Assembly: GCF_008369165.1 (NCBI RefSeq)
Contig: NZ_VOBA01000001.1
Span: 2,039,630-2,103,629 of the forward strand
Direction: 5' to 3'
From: Dietzia sp. ANT_WB102
Lineage (GTDB): Bacteria; Actinomycetota; Actinomycetes; Mycobacteriales; Mycobacteriaceae
Length of the DNA stretch: 64,000 nt
Shown here one piece after another: positions 4,350 through 60,190 of this stretch (the first letter of the stretch is position 1; the number at the start of each line of letters is the position of its first letter). Made by a program: the position numbers and the translations under genes. Under the pieces are notes generated by a model. That model saw only the letters and a list, made by a program, of their open reading frames with translations. It was not told the DNA's origin and did no database searches.

Positions 4350-5195
4350 TCAGCGGCCCTGGGGTCCAGACGGACACCGCCGTGCCGCGCCTGCGAGCAC
4401 CTCGTGATCGGCCCTGGTCACGGGCAGGCCGTAAGCGACGGCGGCGGTCAGGTACCGGGAAGCGTAGAAGCAGTGACGACGGGGGTCCGGAGGTAACCAG
4501 TCCGCCGGCGTCGAGTCACTCTTGCCGGTGTTGACCGCGGCGCTGACGGCGAGGAGATTGCGATCGACGTCGTTGGCGAACGCCGCACGGCGCCACGCAG
4601 GCCACGCCCACGCCCCGAGATCCCACGCCGCCGACAGCGGGTAGACGTGGTCGACGTGGATACTGCGCAACCCCGCGGTGCCCGCGTCAATCACCTTGCC
4701 GGTATACGGGTCGGTCAGGATTCCGCCGGACACCTCGCACGCGCCCCCGGGCGCCCGCGTGCCGCCGGCAAGGTCGCGGGCCAGGACATCGTGGCGGGTC
4801 GAGCACCCGTTCCCTGACCCAGGGGCACCGGTGGCGTCACTCCAGGCTGGCCCAAACACGCAGGCGGACGCGCCCGAGCAATCCCGCTCGTATCCCGGAG
4901 CGGGGTTTCGATAGTCCACCACGTCGACTGCGTCGAGCAGAGCGACTACCGCCCCCCGCGGTGGGCTGCCTGGTACCGAACCACGAGGGTGTCCCAGCCA
5001 CACCACGCCGGCCAGCACCACGAGCACGGTCGACATCAGCGCGAGTGCACGAGGAGCGATAGGGGGCACGACGCGGCTTACCGCTGGGGCGCACAACCGG
5101 ACGCGGGGTATGCGGATCACGGATTGAGTCTGAACGCCGGGAGCGCCGAGGCCCACCCGTAGCGGCGTCGTCGCGACGCGACTGTGGAGAGGCAC
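4350..5195 (-). CDS. Membrane-anchored or secreted HNH endonuclease family protein (DUF1524-like)
   Basis: A predicted nuclease of up to 281 residues. The C-terminal half carries the DUF1524/HNH signature: HVDHVYPLSAAWDLGA (His, Asp, His), then NDVDRNLLAVSAAVNTGKSD and a final CFYASRYL segment. The N-terminal part has one hydrophobic stretch (ALMSTVLVVLAGVVWLG, about residues 52-68) followed by a Pro/Gly-rich linker, consistent with a signal anchor placing the nuclease outside the membrane. The start is uncertain: ATG 5195, GTG near 5120 or ATG near 5036 are all possible. Family members in actinobacteria are common small exported proteins of unproven role, perhaps in nutrient scavenging from DNA. 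It is divergent from the SNF2 gene, with about 70 bases between them. Confidence 0.8.
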   Translation of the reverse strand: MPLHSRVATTPLRVGLGAPGVQTQSVIRIPRVRLCAPAVSRVVPPIAPRALALMSTVLVVLAGVVWLGHPRGSVPGSPPRGAVVALLDAVDVVDYRNPAPGYERDCSGASACVFGPAWSDATGAPGSGNGCSTRHDVLARDLAGGTRAPGGACEVSGGILTDPYTGKVIDAGTAGLRSIHVDHVYPLSAAWDLGAWAWPAWRRAAFANDVDRNLLAVSAAVNTGKSDSTPADWLPPDPRRHCFYASRYLTAAVAYGLPVTRADHEVLAGAARRCPSGPQGR

Positions 5196-5266
5196 GCCCC
5201 TGTGGATAGCGACGCAGTCCTCGGACGGGGGACGCCCGGCCTACTGTCGGACCGGCGTGCTTACAT

Positions 5267-8158
5267 GTGGGCGTGACCCCGACTGCCGAACCCCGACTGC
5301 ACGCCGTGTGGCAATCCGGGGTCGTCGGACTCTGGTGTGAGACGGGACTGCGCAGGCCGGGTTCGATCGCTCCGGCTGCCTCCGTCACAGCTGTGGGGCG
5401 TGCGGGAGCTCCACCGGACGTGGTCCGGTCACTCGAGCAGTACTCACTGACGCACCGGATCGGAGTCCGTGTCCCGGTGGAGGGCAGGGTTCGGGCGGCG
5501 ACCGTGCCCGGTATCCGGGTCTCGGTCGGAGCCGCGGTCGACCTGTGCGGGATGCTCGACACTGATGATCACTGGGTCGGGCCCGGGTTGCGTGCATTTG
5601 CGGTTCTCTCGTTAGGTGTGGCCGCTTTCGTACGCGCCGGCCACGTCGTGCCTCTCGTCGGTCGTTCCGAGGGCGGGTGGGAAGCGTCCTGGGCCCTCGC
5701 GCGGTCGCCTGTGGTGTCCGCATGGATCGCCGAGAGCCTGTCTCGGTGTCACGGACTGGTGGCGAGCCGTGAGGACCTCGACAGGCTTATCGCCGCGTTG
5801 GCCGATTGCCACGCCCGGATGGCCCTCGCATCTCTTGCAGGGGATAGGCGGAGCGAACTGGGCACCGCGCTGATCAGCGGCGGGGTCGTGGCATCGGGAG
5901 GTCAGGCTTTGGCTGACGCCGTCAACGAGTTCGGCCGAGCGGCGGCGGCGCGGGACGTCGAGGTGGTGTTCCGGATCGTCGAGCCGTCGGGCGATGACGG
6001 AGTCGGTCGGAGTGATATCTACGACGAGACCGGGAGTGGCGCGGCCGGGGAGAGTCTGTGGCGGTTGGAGGTCCTCGTGCGCACTGGTACCGATTCGCTT
6101 CGGCCATTCACCGAACTGCCCGATTCGTCCGCCGTCGGTGACGCCGTGCGCGATGTCGTCGACAGGGCGGTCCGATCGTGGTCACCGCTCGGGCGCGCCG
6201 TTACTTTCGCTGAGAGCCCGGACCTGCTGCTGCCCACCGAGCTGGTGGTCCAGTTGGTCGACGAGGGCGTGGAGTCTCTGCGGGGCAGGGGAATCGAGGT
6301 CCTGCTGCCGAGAGCGTGGACCAGGGTGAGGACCGCGGTGCGGCTCGCGGTGAGGGAACCCGGCACGGAGAACATCGACTCCGGTCGCCGCCTGGGCCTC
6401 GACCAACTGGCGGATGTGGACTGGGAGATGGTCGTTGACGACATCCCAATTGACGCAGCAGAGGCACAAATGCTTCTCGATGCGGCTTCCGACCTGGTCA
6501 AGCTCCGAGGGCAATGGGTTCGGGCGGATCCGGGAGCGCTCCGTCGGGCTGCCCGCTTCCTCGCCGCGAGGCGGGGAGGTCGGGTCACGGCCCCCAGCCT
6601 CGTCGCCGCCCTGATGTCCGAAGAGGGGGAGGGAGTAGAAATCGAGGCTCCCACGACTCTCGACTGGGTGCCGTCGTCGTCGATCCGGGTCGACCTGCCA
6701 TCCTGGTTCGGCGCCACGCTACGTCCCTATCAAGTGGAGGGGGTGCGTTGGCTGGCCGCGCTGTCCAGCGCGGATGTCGGTGCCGTTCTGGCAGATGATA
6801 TGGGCCTCGGCAAGACTATGCAGGTGCTCGCACTGACCGCCTCCGAGTACTCGCGGGGCCGGACCGGCCCCACCTTGGTCGTAGCTCCGCTGACCCTGGT
6901 AGCCACCTGGGCACGGGAGTCGGCGACGTTCGCCCCGGAATTGCGGGTCCACGTCCACCACGGCCCGGAACGGGAACGGGGCGCCGACGCGGTCGCACTA
7001 CTCGGAGCTGCCGATCTCGTCCTGACCTCGTACGGCACCGCGACCCGGGACGCCGAGCTCCTTGCACAGGTGGCATGGCGACGCCTAGTCGCTGACGAGG
7101 CACAGACTGTCAAGAATCCCACCACCTCGGTGGCGCGGGCGGTGTCGGCGATCCCGGCAGACCACCGGATTGCGCTGACCGGGACACCGGTCGAGAACCG
7201 ACTGGACGAACTGCGAGCAGTGCTGGACTTCGCCAATCCGGGGATGATGGGCTCGGCGAGCACGTTCCGCGCGCGGTTCGCGGTTCCCATCGAGTCCCAC
7301 CGCGACGAGGCTGCGGCCTCGAGGTTGCGGGCATTGGCGGCCCCGTTCGTACTTCGCCGCCTCAAGTCCGACCCCAGGGTCGTCGCCGATCTGCCGGAGA
7401 AGCAGCACATCAGGGTGGATGCGCCCCTGACCCGTGAGCAGGCGACCCTGTACCGGGCGGTCGTCGAGGACATGATGGAGCAGGTCAAGGAATCCGAGGG
7501 AGCCGCCCGTAAGGGCGCCATCCTATCGGGACTGACCGCCCTGAAACAGGTGTGCAACCATCCCGCCCACTACCTCGGGGACGGCTCGGCACTCCTTCGC
7601 GGCGGCCGCCACCGCTCAGGCAAGCTCGCCGCTCTGGACGAGGTCCTCACTGAGATCATCGACGCGGGGGAGAAGGTCCTGCTGTTCACCCAGTACCGGG
7701 CGTTCGGCGATCTCATCCTGCCGCTACTCGAGCGGCGCGCTGCCACAGCGGTGCCGTTCCTCCACGGCGGTGTCACGGCCGCCGGGCGTGCACAGATGGT
7801 CGAGGAGTTCCAAGCACCGCACGGCCCTCCGGTGATGCTTGCGTCGCTACGCGCGGGTGGGACCGGCCTGACCCTTACCCAGGCGAACCATGTGGTTCAC
7901 CTGGATCGCTGGTGGAACCCGGCAGTGGAGAACCAGGCGACCGATCGGGTCCACCGCATCGGCCAGACGCGGGTGGTGCAGGTGCGTACGTTGGTCGCTC
8001 CGGGGACGGTCGAAGACCGAATCGACGAACTTCTCGAGGCCAAGCGGGATCTCGCCGAGCTGACCCTGGGCCCGATGGCCGGCGCGCTGACCGAGTTGGC
8101 GGACGCAGACCTCGCCGCGCTCGTCGAGCTCACCGACGAGGGGCGGGACGAACTATGA
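5267..8158 (+). CDS. SNF2/RapA-family DEAD/DEAH-like ATPase
   Basis: A 963-residue SNF2 superfamily ATPase, expected to translocate on double-stranded DNA and move or strip bound proteins. The first 330 residues show no motif I recognise. Around 390-450 there is a segment resembling the SNF2-helicase-associated domain (DWEMVVDDIPIDAAEA...). The ATPase core holds motif I DDMGLGKT (about 511), motif II as DEAQ (about 611), motif III LTGTP (about 640), and in the second lobe QATDRVHRIGQTR (about 892), all in the usual order. GTG 5267 is taken as start; GTG 5273 is equally possible. Its stop overlaps the SWIM gene start by four bases (ATGA). Mycobacterial HelZ-type proteins have the same layout. 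It is the first gene of a four-gene cassette. Confidence 0.92.
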   Translation: MGVTPTAEPRLHAVWQSGVVGLWCETGLRRPGSIAPAASVTAVGRAGAPPDVVRSLEQYSLTHRIGVRVPVEGRVRAATVPGIRVSVGAAVDLCGMLDTDDHWVGPGLRAFAVLSLGVAAFVRAGHVVPLVGRSEGGWEASWALARSPVVSAWIAESLSRCHGLVASREDLDRLIAALADCHARMALASLAGDRRSELGTALISGGVVASGGQALADAVNEFGRAAAARDVEVVFRIVEPSGDDGVGRSDIYDETGSGAAGESLWRLEVLVRTGTDSLRPFTELPDSSAVGDAVRDVVDRAVRSWSPLGRAVTFAESPDLLLPTELVVQLVDEGVESLRGRGIEVLLPRAWTRVRTAVRLAVREPGTENIDSGRRLGLDQLADVDWEMVVDDIPIDAAEAQMLLDAASDLVKLRGQWVRADPGALRRAARFLAARRGGRVTAPSLVAALMSEEGEGVEIEAPTTLDWVPSSSIRVDLPSWFGATLRPYQVEGVRWLAALSSADVGAVLADDMGLGKTMQVLALTASEYSRGRTGPTLVVAPLTLVATWARESATFAPELRVHVHHGPERERGADAVALLGAADLVLTSYGTATRDAELLAQVAWRRLVADEAQTVKNPTTSVARAVSAIPADHRIALTGTPVENRLDELRAVLDFANPGMMGSASTFRARFAVPIESHRDEAAASRLRALAAPFVLRRLKSDPRVVADLPEKQHIRVDAPLTREQATLYRAVVEDMMEQVKESEGAARKGAILSGLTALKQVCNHPAHYLGDGSALLRGGRHRSGKLAALDEVLTEIIDAGEKVLLFTQYRAFGDLILPLLERRAATAVPFLHGGVTAAGRAQMVEEFQAPHGPPVMLASLRAGGTGLTLTQANHVVHLDRWWNPAVENQATDRVHRIGQTRVVQVRTLVAPGTVEDRIDELLEAKRDLAELTLGPMAGALTELADADLAALVELTDEGRDEL

Positions 8159-8910
8159 GCGGCTCGACCGGAATCCCGGCCAGGTCGCGGGCCGGCCAGT
8201 TCGGCTCGCACATGTGGAGCAGGCGGTGGGCGAGTGACATCGAGTCCGGCATCTCCCGTGGTGACGTATACATGGCCCGCAAGGAGGCCCGTAACCACAA
8301 GGTTCTCTCCCTGGACCACTCGGGGCGGTCGGTCAGGTGTGACGTCGCCGGGAGCAGGCCCGCGCCCTTTACAGTCGAGTTCACGTTCGCACCGCTCGAC
8401 GGCACGGATTCGGATGCCTTGCGGACCGCTCTCAGGCGGGAGGAGCACGGAGTTCTCGGTGCCTTGGCAGGGGACTTCTCCGACACCGTCGGATTTCTGC
8501 TGTTGCCGGCAGTCCATGGTGCGACCGCTTTTTCCTGCCACTGTCCGGTCCAGCCAGGCCCCTGCCGACACGTTCTGGCGGCGGCCTACATCATGGTCGA
8601 GTGGTGGGACGCCCGGCCGGAGGTGATGTTCGCGCTGCGGGGCCTGCGGCCCGAACAACTCGGCGCCGTCCTCCGCGGCGACGGCGACGACGACGAGATG
8701 TCCGTTGACGTGGAGGAGGCACTGTGGGGTCGGGACCCGATCCTGCCGGCCTTGCCGTCCCCTGTGCCAGCGGGTCTCGAGGACCTGCTGGACGCGCCCG
8801 TCACCCGGAGATTCGCTGCCGCGGCGACGAACGACCCGCTCGAACAACTGCGGGTGGTAGCGGACCTCGAGGACTTCCTCGACGCATTTAGCAGGTACCG
8901 ACCGAGATGA
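8155..8910 (+). CDS. SWIM zinc finger protein
   Basis: A 251-residue protein with a SWIM zinc-binding motif, CxCx(n)CxH, seen as SCHCPVQPGPCRHVLAA around residues 127-143. SWIM domains are found in bacterial partners of SNF2 ATPases and are thought to bind DNA or protein. No catalytic motif is visible. The rest is mixed alpha/beta with an acidic run (GDGDDDE) at about residue 178. The start ATG 8155 is chosen because it overlaps the SNF2 stop (ATGA); the same frame stays open upstream only as an overlap with the SNF2 gene. Its own stop overlaps the next gene by four bases. SNF2-SWIM pairing is widespread in actinobacteria, so a functional complex is a fair inference. Confidence 0.88.
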   Translation: MSGSTGIPARSRAGQFGSHMWSRRWASDIESGISRGDVYMARKEARNHKVLSLDHSGRSVRCDVAGSRPAPFTVEFTFAPLDGTDSDALRTALRREEHGVLGALAGDFSDTVGFLLLPAVHGATAFSCHCPVQPGPCRHVLAAAYIMVEWWDARPEVMFALRGLRPEQLGAVLRGDGDDDEMSVDVEEALWGRDPILPALPSPVPAGLEDLLDAPVTRRFAAAATNDPLEQLRVVADLEDFLDAFSRYRPR

Positions 8911-10142
8911 GTCGCACCTCCGCTGGGGAACGTGTCGGACCCGCGACCTACGATGCGGCCATGACCAACCCACGGGACGAGGAGACCATCCGATTCCTCC
9001 ACTCGGCCGACTGGCAGCTCGGGATGACCCGGCGGTTCCTCGGCGATGAATCCCAGGCCGTCTTCACTGCCGATAGGCTCGCGGCCGTAGACGCGCTCGG
9101 TAAGCTCGCCGAGCGGCACGGCACGCAGTTCGTGGTGGTCGCGGGTGACGTCTTCGAGGACAACGCGGTACCCCGATCGGTGGTACTTCGAGCAGTGGAA
9201 GCCTTGGCTGCCTTCCCGGTGCCGGTACTGGTGCTGCCGGGCAACCACGACCCATTGGACGTGTCCTCGGTATTCCGGTGCAGGGACTTTTCTCCGGCAC
9301 TCGAAGGCGGTGCAGTCGTTGTCCTCGACGGTTCGGGCCCGGTCGAGGTCGTTCCCGGCGTCGAGGTGGTCGGCGTCCCCTGGACCTCCAAACGGCCCGA
9401 CCCCTCACGATTGCCAGCACTACTGGCCTCGCTCGATCCCACTGACGGGGTTCGCATCCTCGTTGCGCACGGTGGCACCGACGAGATTTATGGAGGGCAC
9501 TCACCGTCGGTGGAGGCGATCGCCGTGTCCACGTTGGAGGAGGCTATCGACTCCGAGCGTCTGGACTATGTGGCCCTCGGGGACCGGCACTCGGTCACCC
9601 GGGTGGGCACCGGCGGGAGGATCTGGTTCTCGGGAAGTCCGGAGACCACTGACTTCGACGACGTCGAAAAGGACTCCGGGAATGTCCTGCTCGTCGAACT
9701 CGATCGACGTGCCGCATCCGGGCACAGGGGCTCCTGTGAGGTCACGCCCTTGCGGACCGGACGATGGTCCTTCCTTGCCGTGGACGCGCAAATCGACACG
9801 GACGGTGACCTCGATTCCCTCGCCGAGAGAATCGAGACCGTGCAGGACAAGCCGCGCACCGTGCTCAAACTCGGGCTCACCGGAACCGTGGGGGTGGCCT
9901 TGCGCGCGAGGATCGACGATCTGCTGGAGACCTGGGACGCCGTGTTCGCATCCGCATACCTGCGCGAGTCCCGCACCCACCTCGTCGTGCGAGCCGACGA
10001 CTCCGACTTCACAAACCTCGTGGACGGGTACGCGGGGCGCGCGGTGGGCGACCTCGTCGATATGGCAGCCACCGGCGGGGCCGATGCCGAGGACGCCGGG
10101 CACGCCCTCAGCCTGTTATATCGGCTCGTGGACGGGGGATGA
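8907..10142 (+). CDS. SbcD/Mre11/YhaO-like metallophosphoesterase (putative DNA exonuclease)
   Basis: A 411-residue calcineurin-like phosphoesterase of the Mre11/SbcD class. Motifs in order: SADWQLG (about 32, in place of the usual DxH), GDVFED (about 80), GNHDP (about 110), AHGG (about 187) and LGDRHS (about 224). The first motif has Gln where SbcD has His, so one metal ligand differs from classical enzymes. After the catalytic domain (to about 250) a capping and C-terminal region follows, as expected for a protein that docks on an ABC-type ATPase. ATG 8907 overlaps the SWIM stop; ATG 8961 is an alternative that would remove 18 residues. The partner ATPase starts two bases after this stop codon. 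Likely cytoplasmic DNA-end processing. Confidence 0.88.
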   Translation: MSRTSAGERVGPATYDAAMTNPRDEETIRFLHSADWQLGMTRRFLGDESQAVFTADRLAAVDALGKLAERHGTQFVVVAGDVFEDNAVPRSVVLRAVEALAAFPVPVLVLPGNHDPLDVSSVFRCRDFSPALEGGAVVVLDGSGPVEVVPGVEVVGVPWTSKRPDPSRLPALLASLDPTDGVRILVAHGGTDEIYGGHSPSVEAIAVSTLEEAIDSERLDYVALGDRHSVTRVGTGGRIWFSGSPETTDFDDVEKDSGNVLLVELDRRAASGHRGSCEVTPLRTGRWSFLAVDAQIDTDGDLDSLAERIETVQDKPRTVLKLGLTGTVGVALRARIDDLLETWDAVFASAYLRESRTHLVVRADDSDFTNLVDGYAGRAVGDLVDMAATGGADAEDAGHALSLLYRLVDGG

Positions 10143-10143
10143 G

Positions 10144-12780
10144 ATGATTTTGCACCGACTGAAGATCGAGGACTTCCGCGGGGTGGTGCGGGAGGAGGTG
10201 GACCTGCCGCCACGAGGGGTGCTCGTGATCGAGGGGCCCAACGAGTCGGGAAAAACCAGCCTGATGGACGCATTGGAGATGCTGCTTGAGCACAAAGCCT
10301 CGTCCGGGCGAGCCGAGATCAAGGCTGCCAGCCCAGTGGGCAGGGACGTGCCCGTGGTGGTGGAGGCGGAGTTCACCGTCGACGGTGAACGAATGCGGTA
10401 TCGCAAGGAGTTCGTCCGAGGTAAACGGACCTCCCTCGAGTTCCCGGGCTCGGCGCGTACGGCGTTGGCGGGCGACGACGCCCATGACTATGTCCGCGAC
10501 GTGCTGGACCGCCAGGTTGACCGCTCGCTGTGGCGGGCCCTACGCATAGCCCAGGACGAGCCGCTGGGTCAGGTCGACGCATCCAAGGGGATGGACTCCC
10601 TCCGGCGCGCGCTGGACGCGGCGGCCGGCGGTGAGGACCCCACCGGTGACGACTCGCTGGTGGAGCGCGTCGCTGAGGAGCGTAATCGTTATCTGACGTC
10701 GCGACGGGGTGAACCCACCGGCGATCTGGCGCGTTCAGAAGCTCGTCTCACCGAGGCCCGGGCTGCGCTCTCCGACGCGCGAGCGCGGCACGCAGAACTC
10801 GATGCAGCTGTGGCGGACCATGAGGTCCAGTCGTCTGTCCACCGCGCAAGGCTGGAGTCGCTGGATTCACTTGATGCGGAAGTCACGAGGCTCGAGGCCG
10901 CGGGTCGTGCCGTTGCAGAACTCCGGGGCGCCTGTGCTTCCGCGGACGCCGAGGTCGACCGCGCGGTAGCCGCTCACGACGCAGTGCTCCGCGAACAGCG
11001 GGAGCGCCGCGGCCTTGTCGACAGGGCGTCGACCGAACAGCGGAGAGAGTCGGATCTGCGGGCGGAGGCGACGATGGCCGCCGAGAGACTCGAGCCGGCC
11101 CAGGAGCGGGCCAGGCGCTCGCGGACCGAACTGGACGCCGCAGAGGAGCGCGTCACTCGGGCGCGTATGCAGCTTGATGCCTTACGCGCGGTTGAGGAGC
11201 GCGACCGCAGGCGTGCGGACCTCGAGCATTTGGATCGACTCCTGGAGACTCTGACCTCGGTGGGTGAGGAGCTCCGCCGTAAGGAGGCGGAGCTCTCCGA
11301 GGTCGACGTCGCCGACGGCGCGGCCGAGGTCATCCGTCGCGCGGACGATGCGCTACGGGAAGCCGTCGTCCGGTCCGCGGCCAGCGCACCACGGGTAGAG
11401 ATCGCCGGCGAGGGCGAGTTCCGGGTAGGTGGGGAAGGCCTCGATGCCTCTACCGGGTGGACGCAGGAGATTATCGAAGACACGGTCTTCGAAGTTGGAA
11501 CGGTGACTCTGACCGTTGTCCCAGCAGGTGACACTGATGCCGTCCGTCGCGAGGAGAAGGCCGCGCGCGCCCATTTGGACCACCTACTCGCGGCACTGGG
11601 CGTGGAGTCATCCGCCGACGCCGAGCGCCGCGCCCGTCGTGCGGAAGCGCTGCGTGCCGAGATCGAGGCCTTGCGTCGCCGTCGAGCGGACCTGCTCGGC
11701 GATGACACCGCCGAGGACCTCTACGCGAGGCGGGACGACCTTCGCTCCTCGACCCTGGCCGAGGACTCCCCGTTTCGGCGGGAGGAAGAAGGCGGGGCGG
11801 ACGAGGCCCCCCATGAGGGACCGGCAGATCCGGCGAGCGAAGCCGCCTCAGCGGAAGCCGCACTCGTCCGCTGCCGGGCGGAAGACCGCGCCGCGTCCGC
11901 CGAGGCAGAGACACTCCGGACGGAATACGCGACTCGCATTGCGCTGGCGGACGAGGCGGCCCACCGACTCAGCGAGTGCAATGCGGCGCTGACGGCCGCG
12001 CGAGATGCCGTGCCTGACCTCAAGCTGGATGAGTCGCTGGAGCAGGCGCGTGTCCGGGCCGAGGCCGCCCGCGAGAAGGCACGACAGGCGAAGACGAGGC
12101 TGGGCGAGGCGCTCGCTGACGCCCCGCCCAGCCTGCTGGAGAACGCTCGGGCTTCGCATGCTGCGTTGGCCGCCGAGGAACGCGAGTCGGCGGCAGCCGT
12201 CGCCACTGCGTTGGGCAGGGTCAACGCGATTGGCGACCAAGGGCGGCTCGACGGCGTCGCTGCCGCCGAGCGTGAACTGGAGGCGGCAGAGAGGGAGAAC
12301 GCAGCGCTGTGGCGCCGTGCCCGTGCGGCGGATCTGCTTTACCGAACCCTCGCGGCCCGTCGATCGGAAGCCCTGCTTGCCTACCAGGCACCGTTCCACC
12401 GCGCGGTCGTCGAACTCGGCTCTCTCGTCTACGGACGTGACTTCGACGTCCGTCTCGGGGAGGACCTGACCATCCTGTCGAGGCGGGTCGGTGACGTCAC
12501 CGTAGATTACGAATCGCTGTCCGGCGGTGCCAGGGAGCAGTTGGCGGTGATAGTGAGGATCGCGTGTGCGCGGCTTGTCGGCGACAACGGCGTTCCGGTA
12601 TTCCTCGACGACACGATGGGGTACACCGACCCGTCCCGCCGACTCACCATGGGCGCAGTCATCGCAGCTGCGGCTGCAACGTCACAGGTGATCGTTCTCA
12701 CCTGCGATCGCGCACGGTTCGCGGGCATCGGAGGCGCCCACACTCACGTCATGCAGAGAACCGGTGCGGGCCGAGAGTGA
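10144..12780 (+). CDS. SbcC/Rad50/YhaN-like ABC ATPase with long coiled coil
   Basis: An 878-residue SMC-like ATPase. Walker A is GPNESGKT at about 29-36. The ABC signature LSGGAREQ is at about 792, directly followed by Walker B VFLDD at about 819. Between them lie two long Ala/Glu/Arg-rich coiled-coil arms (about 190-400 and 470-750). No CxxC zinc hook is present at the apex. Instead, about 410-470 looks like a small beta-rich module (RVEIAGEGEFRVGGEG). The start ATG 10144 is chosen because the protein then begins with the typical N-terminus MILHRLKIEDFRG; the frame is also open upstream, but only antisense to sense with the phosphoesterase gene. It probably forms a two-protein nuclease complex with the upstream phosphoesterase. 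Confidence 0.9.
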   Translation: MILHRLKIEDFRGVVREEVDLPPRGVLVIEGPNESGKTSLMDALEMLLEHKASSGRAEIKAASPVGRDVPVVVEAEFTVDGERMRYRKEFVRGKRTSLEFPGSARTALAGDDAHDYVRDVLDRQVDRSLWRALRIAQDEPLGQVDASKGMDSLRRALDAAAGGEDPTGDDSLVERVAEERNRYLTSRRGEPTGDLARSEARLTEARAALSDARARHAELDAAVADHEVQSSVHRARLESLDSLDAEVTRLEAAGRAVAELRGACASADAEVDRAVAAHDAVLREQRERRGLVDRASTEQRRESDLRAEATMAAERLEPAQERARRSRTELDAAEERVTRARMQLDALRAVEERDRRRADLEHLDRLLETLTSVGEELRRKEAELSEVDVADGAAEVIRRADDALREAVVRSAASAPRVEIAGEGEFRVGGEGLDASTGWTQEIIEDTVFEVGTVTLTVVPAGDTDAVRREEKAARAHLDHLLAALGVESSADAERRARRAEALRAEIEALRRRRADLLGDDTAEDLYARRDDLRSSTLAEDSPFRREEEGGADEAPHEGPADPASEAASAEAALVRCRAEDRAASAEAETLRTEYATRIALADEAAHRLSECNAALTAARDAVPDLKLDESLEQARVRAEAAREKARQAKTRLGEALADAPPSLLENARASHAALAAEERESAAAVATALGRVNAIGDQGRLDGVAAAERELEAAERENAALWRRARAADLLYRTLAARRSEALLAYQAPFHRAVVELGSLVYGRDFDVRLGEDLTILSRRVGDVTVDYESLSGGAREQLAVIVRIACARLVGDNGVPVFLDDTMGYTDPSRRLTMGAVIAAAAATSQVIVLTCDRARFAGIGGAHTHVMQRTGAGRE

Positions 12781-12839
12781 ACAACGTCAACGGCAGAAGG
12801 TCTTCGCGCGGTGGTGGAGGAGGGGCTGAAAAAGGCGTC

Positions 12840-12854
12840 GTGCTGTAATAGCAC
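12840..12854. promoter_or_regulatory. Palindromic operator GTGCT-N5-AGCAC over a -10 box
   Basis: A perfect inverted repeat GTGCT/AGCAC with a five-base spacer ends one base before the MarR start codon. The spacer region contains TGTAAT (12844-12849), a good -10 box six bases before the ATG. A repressor bound here would block the promoter. Self-control by the MarR protein is the simplest reading, but unproven. Confidence 0.55.
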
Positions 12855-12855
12855 C

Positions 12856-13335
12856 ATGACAGAGACACGCTGGTTGAGCGATGACGAGCAGCGCATGTGG
12901 CGGCGGTATCGGGATGTCAACCAACTTCTCGAACTCGCGATGGAACGCCAGCTTCAGCGAGACGCCTCGATGTCTCAGTCCGATTACTCAGTTCTGGTGA
13001 GCCTCAGTGAGGCTGACCGCGCTGGATTGCGGGCTCGCGAACTCGGCGCAGACCTCGGCTGGGACCGGAGTCGGGTATCACATCAGGTCAGACGTATGGA
13101 GGGCCGCGGTCTCGTGGCCAAGGGGGAGTGCCCGGAAGACGGCCGTGGAACCGTTGTCACCCTGACAGAGGCGGGTGCCCAGGCGATCGCGGCAGTGGCC
13201 CCGAAGCACGTGGAAAAGGTGCGAGAGTTGTTCATCGACGTGCTCACCGAGCATGAAGTGCACATGCTGACGGACATCTACGAGCGGATCGTCGACCGCA
13301 TCGGGGCGGTGGACGGAATCACCCGGCCGAGTTGA
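12856..13335 (+). CDS. MarR family transcriptional regulator
   Basis: A 159-residue winged-helix regulator of the MarR type. The helix-turn-helix and wing are seen as LRARELGADLGWDRSRVSHQVRRMEGRGLVAKGECPEDGRG, followed by VTLTEAGAQAI, in the standard order and at the standard position. N- and C-terminal helices would form the dimer interface. Start ATG 12856 gives the usual family length; an in-frame GTG at 12811 would add 15 residues with no family support. The ATG lies six bases after a TGTAAT -10 box within a short palindrome, so the mRNA is probably leaderless and self-regulated. Its ligand and other targets are unknown. The stop is followed at once by a strong hairpin. Confidence 0.88.
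   Translation: MTETRWLSDDEQRMWRRYRDVNQLLELAMERQLQRDASMSQSDYSVLVSLSEADRAGLRARELGADLGWDRSRVSHQVRRMEGRGLVAKGECPEDGRGTVVTLTEAGAQAIAAVAPKHVEKVRELFIDVLTEHEVHMLTDIYERIVDRIGAVDGITRPS

Positions 13336-57254: not shown

Positions 57255-60190
<2,936 letters not shown>

Follow-up and report, generated by a model that had tools for sequence, protein, structure and literature searches.

Do the SNF2, SWIM, SbcD-like and SbcC-like genes that stand side by side in Dietzia sp. ANT_WB102 work together, and do they repair DNA or defend the cell against foreign DNA? An earlier note on the window (the whole stretch of 64,000 nucleotides that was analysed) had proposed that the four products act as one machine in repair or in defence. 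We give an even chance to the reading that the locus is a DNA-damage-inducible repair operon, in which a variant nuclease does the work of SbcCD and the SNF2-SWIM pair clears or moves proteins on DNA.

The window contains four open reading frames on the forward strand (5267-8158, 8155-8910, 8907-10142 and 10144-12780). As opened, these frames share an ATGA at the SNF2/SWIM (8155-8158) and SWIM/SbcD (8907-8910) junctions, and a single base, 10143, separates SbcD from SbcC. The genes, their strand, the one-base gap and the SNF2/SWIM overlap were all as previously described. The second four-base overlap of that description is probably an artefact of the start of the reading frame, because the most likely start of SbcD, judged by comparison of sequences, is ATG 8961, which puts 50 bases between the two genes; the gap is of similar length, 49-61 bases, at nine of the 13 Dietzia loci. 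For SNF2, the start that is invariant across 13 Dietzia sequences is GTG 5273 and not 5267.

Table 1. Features of the four-gene locus and of the elements before its two gene pairs, in positions of the window.
Feature	Position	Strand	Details
Promoter-like element before SNF2	5245-5266	+	TGTCGGAC (5245-5252), 8 bases, TTACAT (5261-5266), 6 bases to GTG 5273
SNF2-family translocase with N-terminal DUF3670 accessory region	5273-8158	+	ORF opens at GTG 5267; invariant start GTG 5273
SWIM zinc-finger protein, 251 aa	8155-8910	+	ligands C128, C130, C137 and H139, at about 8536-8571
Promoter-like element before SbcD	8933-8954	+	TGTCGGAC (8933-8940), 8 bases, TACGAT (8949-8954), 6 bases to ATG 8961
Variant SbcD/Mre11-type phosphoesterase	8961-10142	+	ORF opens at ATG 8907; likely start ATG 8961
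Variant SbcC/Rad50-type ATPase, 878 aa	10144-12780	+	SMC_N/AAA_23 domains; motif counts from 60 sequences
SbcC motifs	Walker A about 10234-10260; signature about 12517-12543; Walker B with DD about 12595-12630	+	CxxC zinc hook absent
Beta-rich segment at the SbcC coiled-coil apex, where Rad50 has its zinc hook	11392-11520	+	AlphaFold2 strands, residues 417-459

Domain matches and invariant motifs bear out the identities that had been assigned to the four products, namely an SNF2 translocase, a SWIM protein, an Mre11-type phosphoesterase and a Rad50-type ATPase. The SNF2 gene matches the Pfam domains SNF2-rel_dom (219.7 bits), DUF3670 (97.3 bits) and Helicase_C (65.4 bits), its motor motifs are intact in 61 sequences, and the closest solved structure is that of the Sulfolobus SNF2/Rad54 protein (1z63). 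The SWIM protein of the window scores 15.7 bits against Pfam SWIM, under the cut-off of 19.6, and its predicted structure is weak (mean pLDDT 59.6) and offers no hint of partners; six of seven family members match the same Pfam domain (best 2e-5), and all 61 homologues keep the CxCx6CxH motif unchanged. The SNF2 motor and its CxCxnCxH partner are adjacent in all loci read, and SWIM-associated SWI2/SNF2 ATPases are a recognised class (PMC5512222). The best NCBIfam model for the SNF2 protein is the SCO1167/SCO6262 SNF2 helicase family (NF058637), with 648.3 bits, below the family cut-off of 1200 bits. Pairs of this kind (actinobacterial SNF2-SWIM, SsoRad54 type) likewise have an adjoining SWIM partner, whereas the pair in the window is additionally joined to SbcD-SbcC. 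On the other side of SNF2 lies a divergent gene of the HNH/GmrSD_C type (4350-5195, reverse strand), whose product appears to have a membrane segment at its N-terminus; the gene stays beside SNF2-SWIM in Dietzia, in the Corynebacterium-like groups and in several other genera, even without SbcD-SbcC.

The last two genes had been likened to SbcCD; this holds at the level of the family, and the altered metal ligands, the absent zinc hook and the replacement of canonical SbcCD had been missed. SbcD has a Metallophos domain and SbcD-type matches, with a TIGR00619 score of 51.9 bits that is below the cut-off of 77.65, and SbcC matches SMC_N, AAA_23 and AAA_27 in Pfam. Alignment to solved SbcD and Mre11 proteins showed glutamine for histidine in motif I (HTADWQLG vs HTSDWHLG; Q at about 9015) and aspartate for the first histidine of GHxH in the last motif (ALGDRH vs ALGHIH; D at about 9582), where the canonical SbcD proteins of E. 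coli and Thermotoga have DWHLG and ALGHIH. The glutamine is present in 58 of 60 SbcD sequences and the aspartate in all 60, as are the other metal ligands (D, D, N, H, H). All 60 SbcC partners lack the CxxC zinc hook. Walker A, the LSGG signature and Walker B are present, the last ending in DD and not in DE, and the AlphaFold2 model has long coiled coils and a small beta-rich segment at their apex (local confidence moderate, overall pTM 0.31). The variant pair thus has the two-gene arrangement of SbcCD and Mre11-Rad50, with a phosphoesterase and a coiled-coil ABC ATPase, Walker A, the signature and most of the metal ligands; it differs from them in having DxQ for DxH, GDxH for GHxH, DD for DE and no hook. 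The altered ligands could mean a reduced or a different nuclease activity.

The same variant family, with a damage-type promoter and no adjoining SNF2-SWIM, is found in the Mycobacterium-like genus g50, whose pair is presumably of the Rv1277-Rv1278 type. The AAA_27 match of SbcC agrees with the likeness to B. subtilis YhaO-YhaN drawn in the earlier note; YhaO-YhaN is an SbcCD-like pair that is not known to have SNF2-SWIM neighbours. Three proteobacterial SbcD-SbcC pairs in plasmid-collection records (L191, L193 and L194; Sphingomonas, Geminicoccaceae and Variovorax) also carry the DxQ/GDxH, hookless and DD signature, and that of Sphingomonas has a SIR2 gene and a restriction enzyme of type ISP in its vicinity. 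No relatives of the window SbcC were found among phage records.

To learn how far the four genes travel together, we surveyed 201 genomes of the GTDB family Mycobacteriaceae by profile searches with the SbcD and SWIM proteins, and found the SbcD variant in 81 and the SWIM protein in 174. The order SNF2-SWIM-SbcD-SbcC on one strand is present in all 47 genomes of four genera: Dietzia (g1, 16 genomes), g3 (15), g4 (two) and g51 (14; neighbourhoods read in ten and judged by coordinates in four). We infer that g3 and g4 are Corynebacterium-like, as g50 is Mycobacterium-like; g51 is taken to be Tsukamurella because it matches a record named as Tsukamurella, in which the genes stand in this order and kgd lies upstream. 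The possibility raised beforehand that the four families are adjacent only here can accordingly be set aside. The other one, that the pairs are usually far apart and inherited independently, does not hold in these four genera; in the rest of the survey the pairs stand apart or by themselves. Both pairs are present but apart in g8, g10 and g12 (17 genomes), the SbcD-SbcC pair is found without SWIM in g50, g7 and g37 (17 genomes), and the SWIM protein without the variant SbcD in 110 of the 201 genomes, often with the divergent HNH gene upstream of SNF2. The two pairs are functional modules able to live apart in related genera. The one machine first proposed finds partial support, in that all four genes make up a single conserved unit in Dietzia, the Corynebacterium-like groups and Tsukamurella, where their products may act together; an obligate four-part machine across the family is contradicted, since the pairs are separable. 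Outside the family, in a class-wide sample of 297 genomes, the variant SbcD is rare (four genomes) and SWIM relatives are common.

Where the pairs are linked, their arrangement is tight and goes beyond chance. We read 40 complete linked loci from the four genera, and the genes are contiguous in every one, with a spacing of -8 to +15 between SNF2 and SWIM in 38 and of -4 to +9 between SbcD and SbcC in 39, the exception being a mis-chosen start. The distance between SWIM and SbcD ranges from an overlap to about 120 bases, and reaches 761-778 bases in three g51 loci. In a Tsukamurella record (L190), a gap of this size between SWIM and SbcD holds a PIN-domain (toxin-antitoxin-like) gene at 8542-8922. 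Despite its label of plasmid 17, this record carries a kgd-type gene and looks chromosomal. A deep Dietzia branch (locus L031, genome G012) has kept the whole locus, with cassette proteins 33-50% identical to those of the window and an ArgS 77% identical, and these identities indicate that the cassette evolves fast. Between SbcC and argS lies a MarR-type regulator (12811-13335, forward strand), present at this place in the Dietzia loci that were read and in several of the Corynebacterium-like loci, which may be a relative of RosR.

A single clade of the linked SNF2 genes was rejected by the AU test (p 2.5e-8), and the SNF2 of g51 groups with those of the unlinked g8, g10, g12 and g39. Either the four-gene unit is therefore ancestral and fell apart in sister genera, or it arose twice; the flanking genes do not decide between the two.

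The distribution of canonical SbcCD in the same 201 genomes provides the strongest functional evidence of this analysis. Counting as canonical every TIGR00619 match over the cut-off of 77.65 bits and as variant the proteins found by the profile search, we obtained 81 genomes with the variant SbcD, 118 with the canonical one, two with neither and none with both, for about 48 with both expected if the two were independent. Related genomes are non-independent draws, and more weight than the raw counts is carried by the number of genera and by the split within genus g8, in which seven genomes have the variant and seven the canonical SbcD. No canonical SbcD was found elsewhere in the genome of Dietzia sp. 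ANT_WB102. Because the two forms never coexist, the variant pair very probably replaces SbcCD and does its work. Dietzia, Tsukamurella and the Corynebacterium-like and Mycobacterium-like groups appear to be without canonical SbcCD, a distinct variant filling the slot genome by genome. The survey also illustrates the extent of change that the Mre11 metal site and the Rad50 hook can undergo while the pair stays in use.

Upstream of SNF2 and of SbcD we detected two promoter-like elements that share their geometry, including an identical spacing to the start codon, as expected of leaderless transcripts, and both are kept in most of 13 Dietzia with constant spacing. A pattern built from these two sites, TGTCGG-N10-TNNNAT-N6-RTG, has two sites in the 3.28-Mb genome, exactly at the SNF2 and SbcD starts, and the reversed control pattern has none. 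Since the pattern was built from them, recovering these two sites is no evidence; the evidence lies instead in their likeness and identical spacing at two separate starts, together with their conservation. Co-regulation of SNF2-SWIM and SbcD-SbcC is, on this comparison of sequences, well supported.

The elements resemble the mycobacterial LexA-independent DNA-damage promoter, tTGTCRgtg-8 nt-TannnT, the type of promoter (P1) from which recA transcription depends on PafBC (PMC5656591). An element of this kind stands before the variant SbcD in eight genera: it has 10-12 of the 12 positions of the mycobacterial consensus in all genomes read of g7, g8, g12, g37, g50 and g51, and 8-10 of 12 in most of Dietzia and of g10, while 0.7-2% of random stretches of 260 bases reach at least 10 of 12. 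The Corynebacterium-like g3 and g4 showed none before SbcD. Before SNF2, most Dietzia have eight of 12 positions. Of the other genera read, about half have a similar start-proximal element before SNF2, including unlinked SNF2 genes in several of them, against a background of 0.16% per start codon; the score, taken as the best of several start codons, is thereby somewhat inflated. The variant SbcD-SbcC pair probably belongs to the LexA-independent damage response. For Dietzia, damage control is argued by analogy, because its elements deviate from the consensus: that of SNF2 is without the TA of the -10, and both have AC for TG in the -35. By this analogy, DNA damage appears to induce all four genes together. 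Additionally, the window has one further start-proximal near match with the same leaderless geometry, TGTCGGAG-N8-TACGGT (57948-57978, reverse strand), which ends six bases before the start of a DnaQ-type exonuclease gene (PRK07942; 57255-57950, reverse strand) next to ligA.

In the repair operon that we favour, damage would activate LexA-independent promoters of the P1/PafBC type before SNF2 and SbcD, judging from the promoter sequences, and both pairs would be made together. The variant SbcD-SbcC would serve as the SbcCD-type nuclease of the cell in place of canonical SbcCD, a step that the distribution strongly supports, and, by analogy with the canonical pair, it would trim hairpins and DNA ends blocked by protein, the SbcC head giving ATP-driven opening. 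The SNF2-SWIM pair, from the biology of its family, would translocate on double-stranded DNA and strip or shift the proteins bound to it, which would give the nuclease, or repair enzymes acting later, access to the damage. What was observed is the gene arrangement, its conservation, the substitutions, the mutual exclusion and the shared promoter element; we infer the damage induction in Dietzia, the action on hairpins and blocked ends and the clearing of proteins by SNF2-SWIM. More tentatively, the products may form a damage-inducible complex that takes the place of SbcCD, in which an Mre11-Rad50-like nuclease, hookless and with a re-engineered metal site, is fed by the SWIM-SNF2 remodeller; this would be a bacterial counterpart of end resection assisted by a remodeller. 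The parts are of known kinds; a search of open-licence papers found no description of the cassette as a four-gene unit, nor of the substitutions or of the replacement of SbcCD. The tie to SNF2-SWIM in several genera makes it possible to test directly whether a bacterial remodeller works with a nuclease of the Mre11-Rad50 kind.

The main rival to the repair operon is that the locus comprises two independent housekeeping repair modules, which have both kept the neighbourhood of an ancestor (kgd-deaD...argS) and belong to one damage regulon but never act on the same substrate, their adjacency being inherited and not functional. Both pairs do occupy this chromosomal neighbourhood in many genera, and SNF2-SWIM coexists with canonical SbcCD in other genomes. 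One pair does not predict the other either, and a positive co-occurrence by presence alone was rejected: the SWIM protein and the variant SbcD are both present in 64 genomes, for about 70 expected. However, the tight spacing of the four genes has outlasted strong sequence divergence, even where MarR, argS and other neighbours moved in Corynebacterium-like loci, and both halves carry matching promoter elements in Dietzia. We regard two independent modules as a serious possibility, although a less probable one than the operon.

Defence against phages or plasmids, in which SNF2 would sense or move on foreign DNA and the nuclease pair degrade it, was the second function envisaged in the earlier note, and we find it unlikely. 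In PADLOC the SNF2 core matches the models of ZorD, DpdE and DrmD, and SbcC has weak matches to defence ATPases; moreover, related variant pairs occur on proteobacterial plasmids, one of them beside the restriction enzyme and SIR2 gene mentioned above. These matches, however, are limited to common motor or ATPase cores: only the SNF2 motor core is in common with Zorya, Dpd and DISARM, the cassette is without ZorA/ZorB, a methylase and the other genes of these systems, no complete known system is present, and PADLOC gave no Zorya matches in the other cassette genes or the two flanking genes. Defence is also less likely because the locus is vertically inherited and is present in every genome of the four genera, at a fixed site beside housekeeping genes. 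This location, the damage-type promoter and the perfect exclusion of canonical SbcCD favour repair.

Still more improbable is that the variant SbcD has lost efficient nuclease activity, so that the pair tethers DNA or clamps onto its ends while SNF2-SWIM plays the active part, as DxQ and GDxH at the metal positions and the absent hook might suggest, for the remaining ligands are invariant in 60 of 60 sequences, Q and D can bind metal, the same substitutions in the three proteobacterial relatives look like selection for a different working site and not like decay, and the variant replaces canonical SbcCD genome by genome.

A simple role of the cassette as a substitute for RecBCD was also considered and rejected, as the cassette-bearing, Tsukamurella-like g51 has RecC and the genomes checked contain PDDEXK pairs of the AdnAB type. 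None of the 16 Dietzia genomes has RecC, and neither do the Corynebacterium-like groups. The genome of Dietzia sp. ANT_WB102 itself carries two adjoining AdnAB-type PDDEXK pairs, at C1:487695-492031 and C2:185829-189883.
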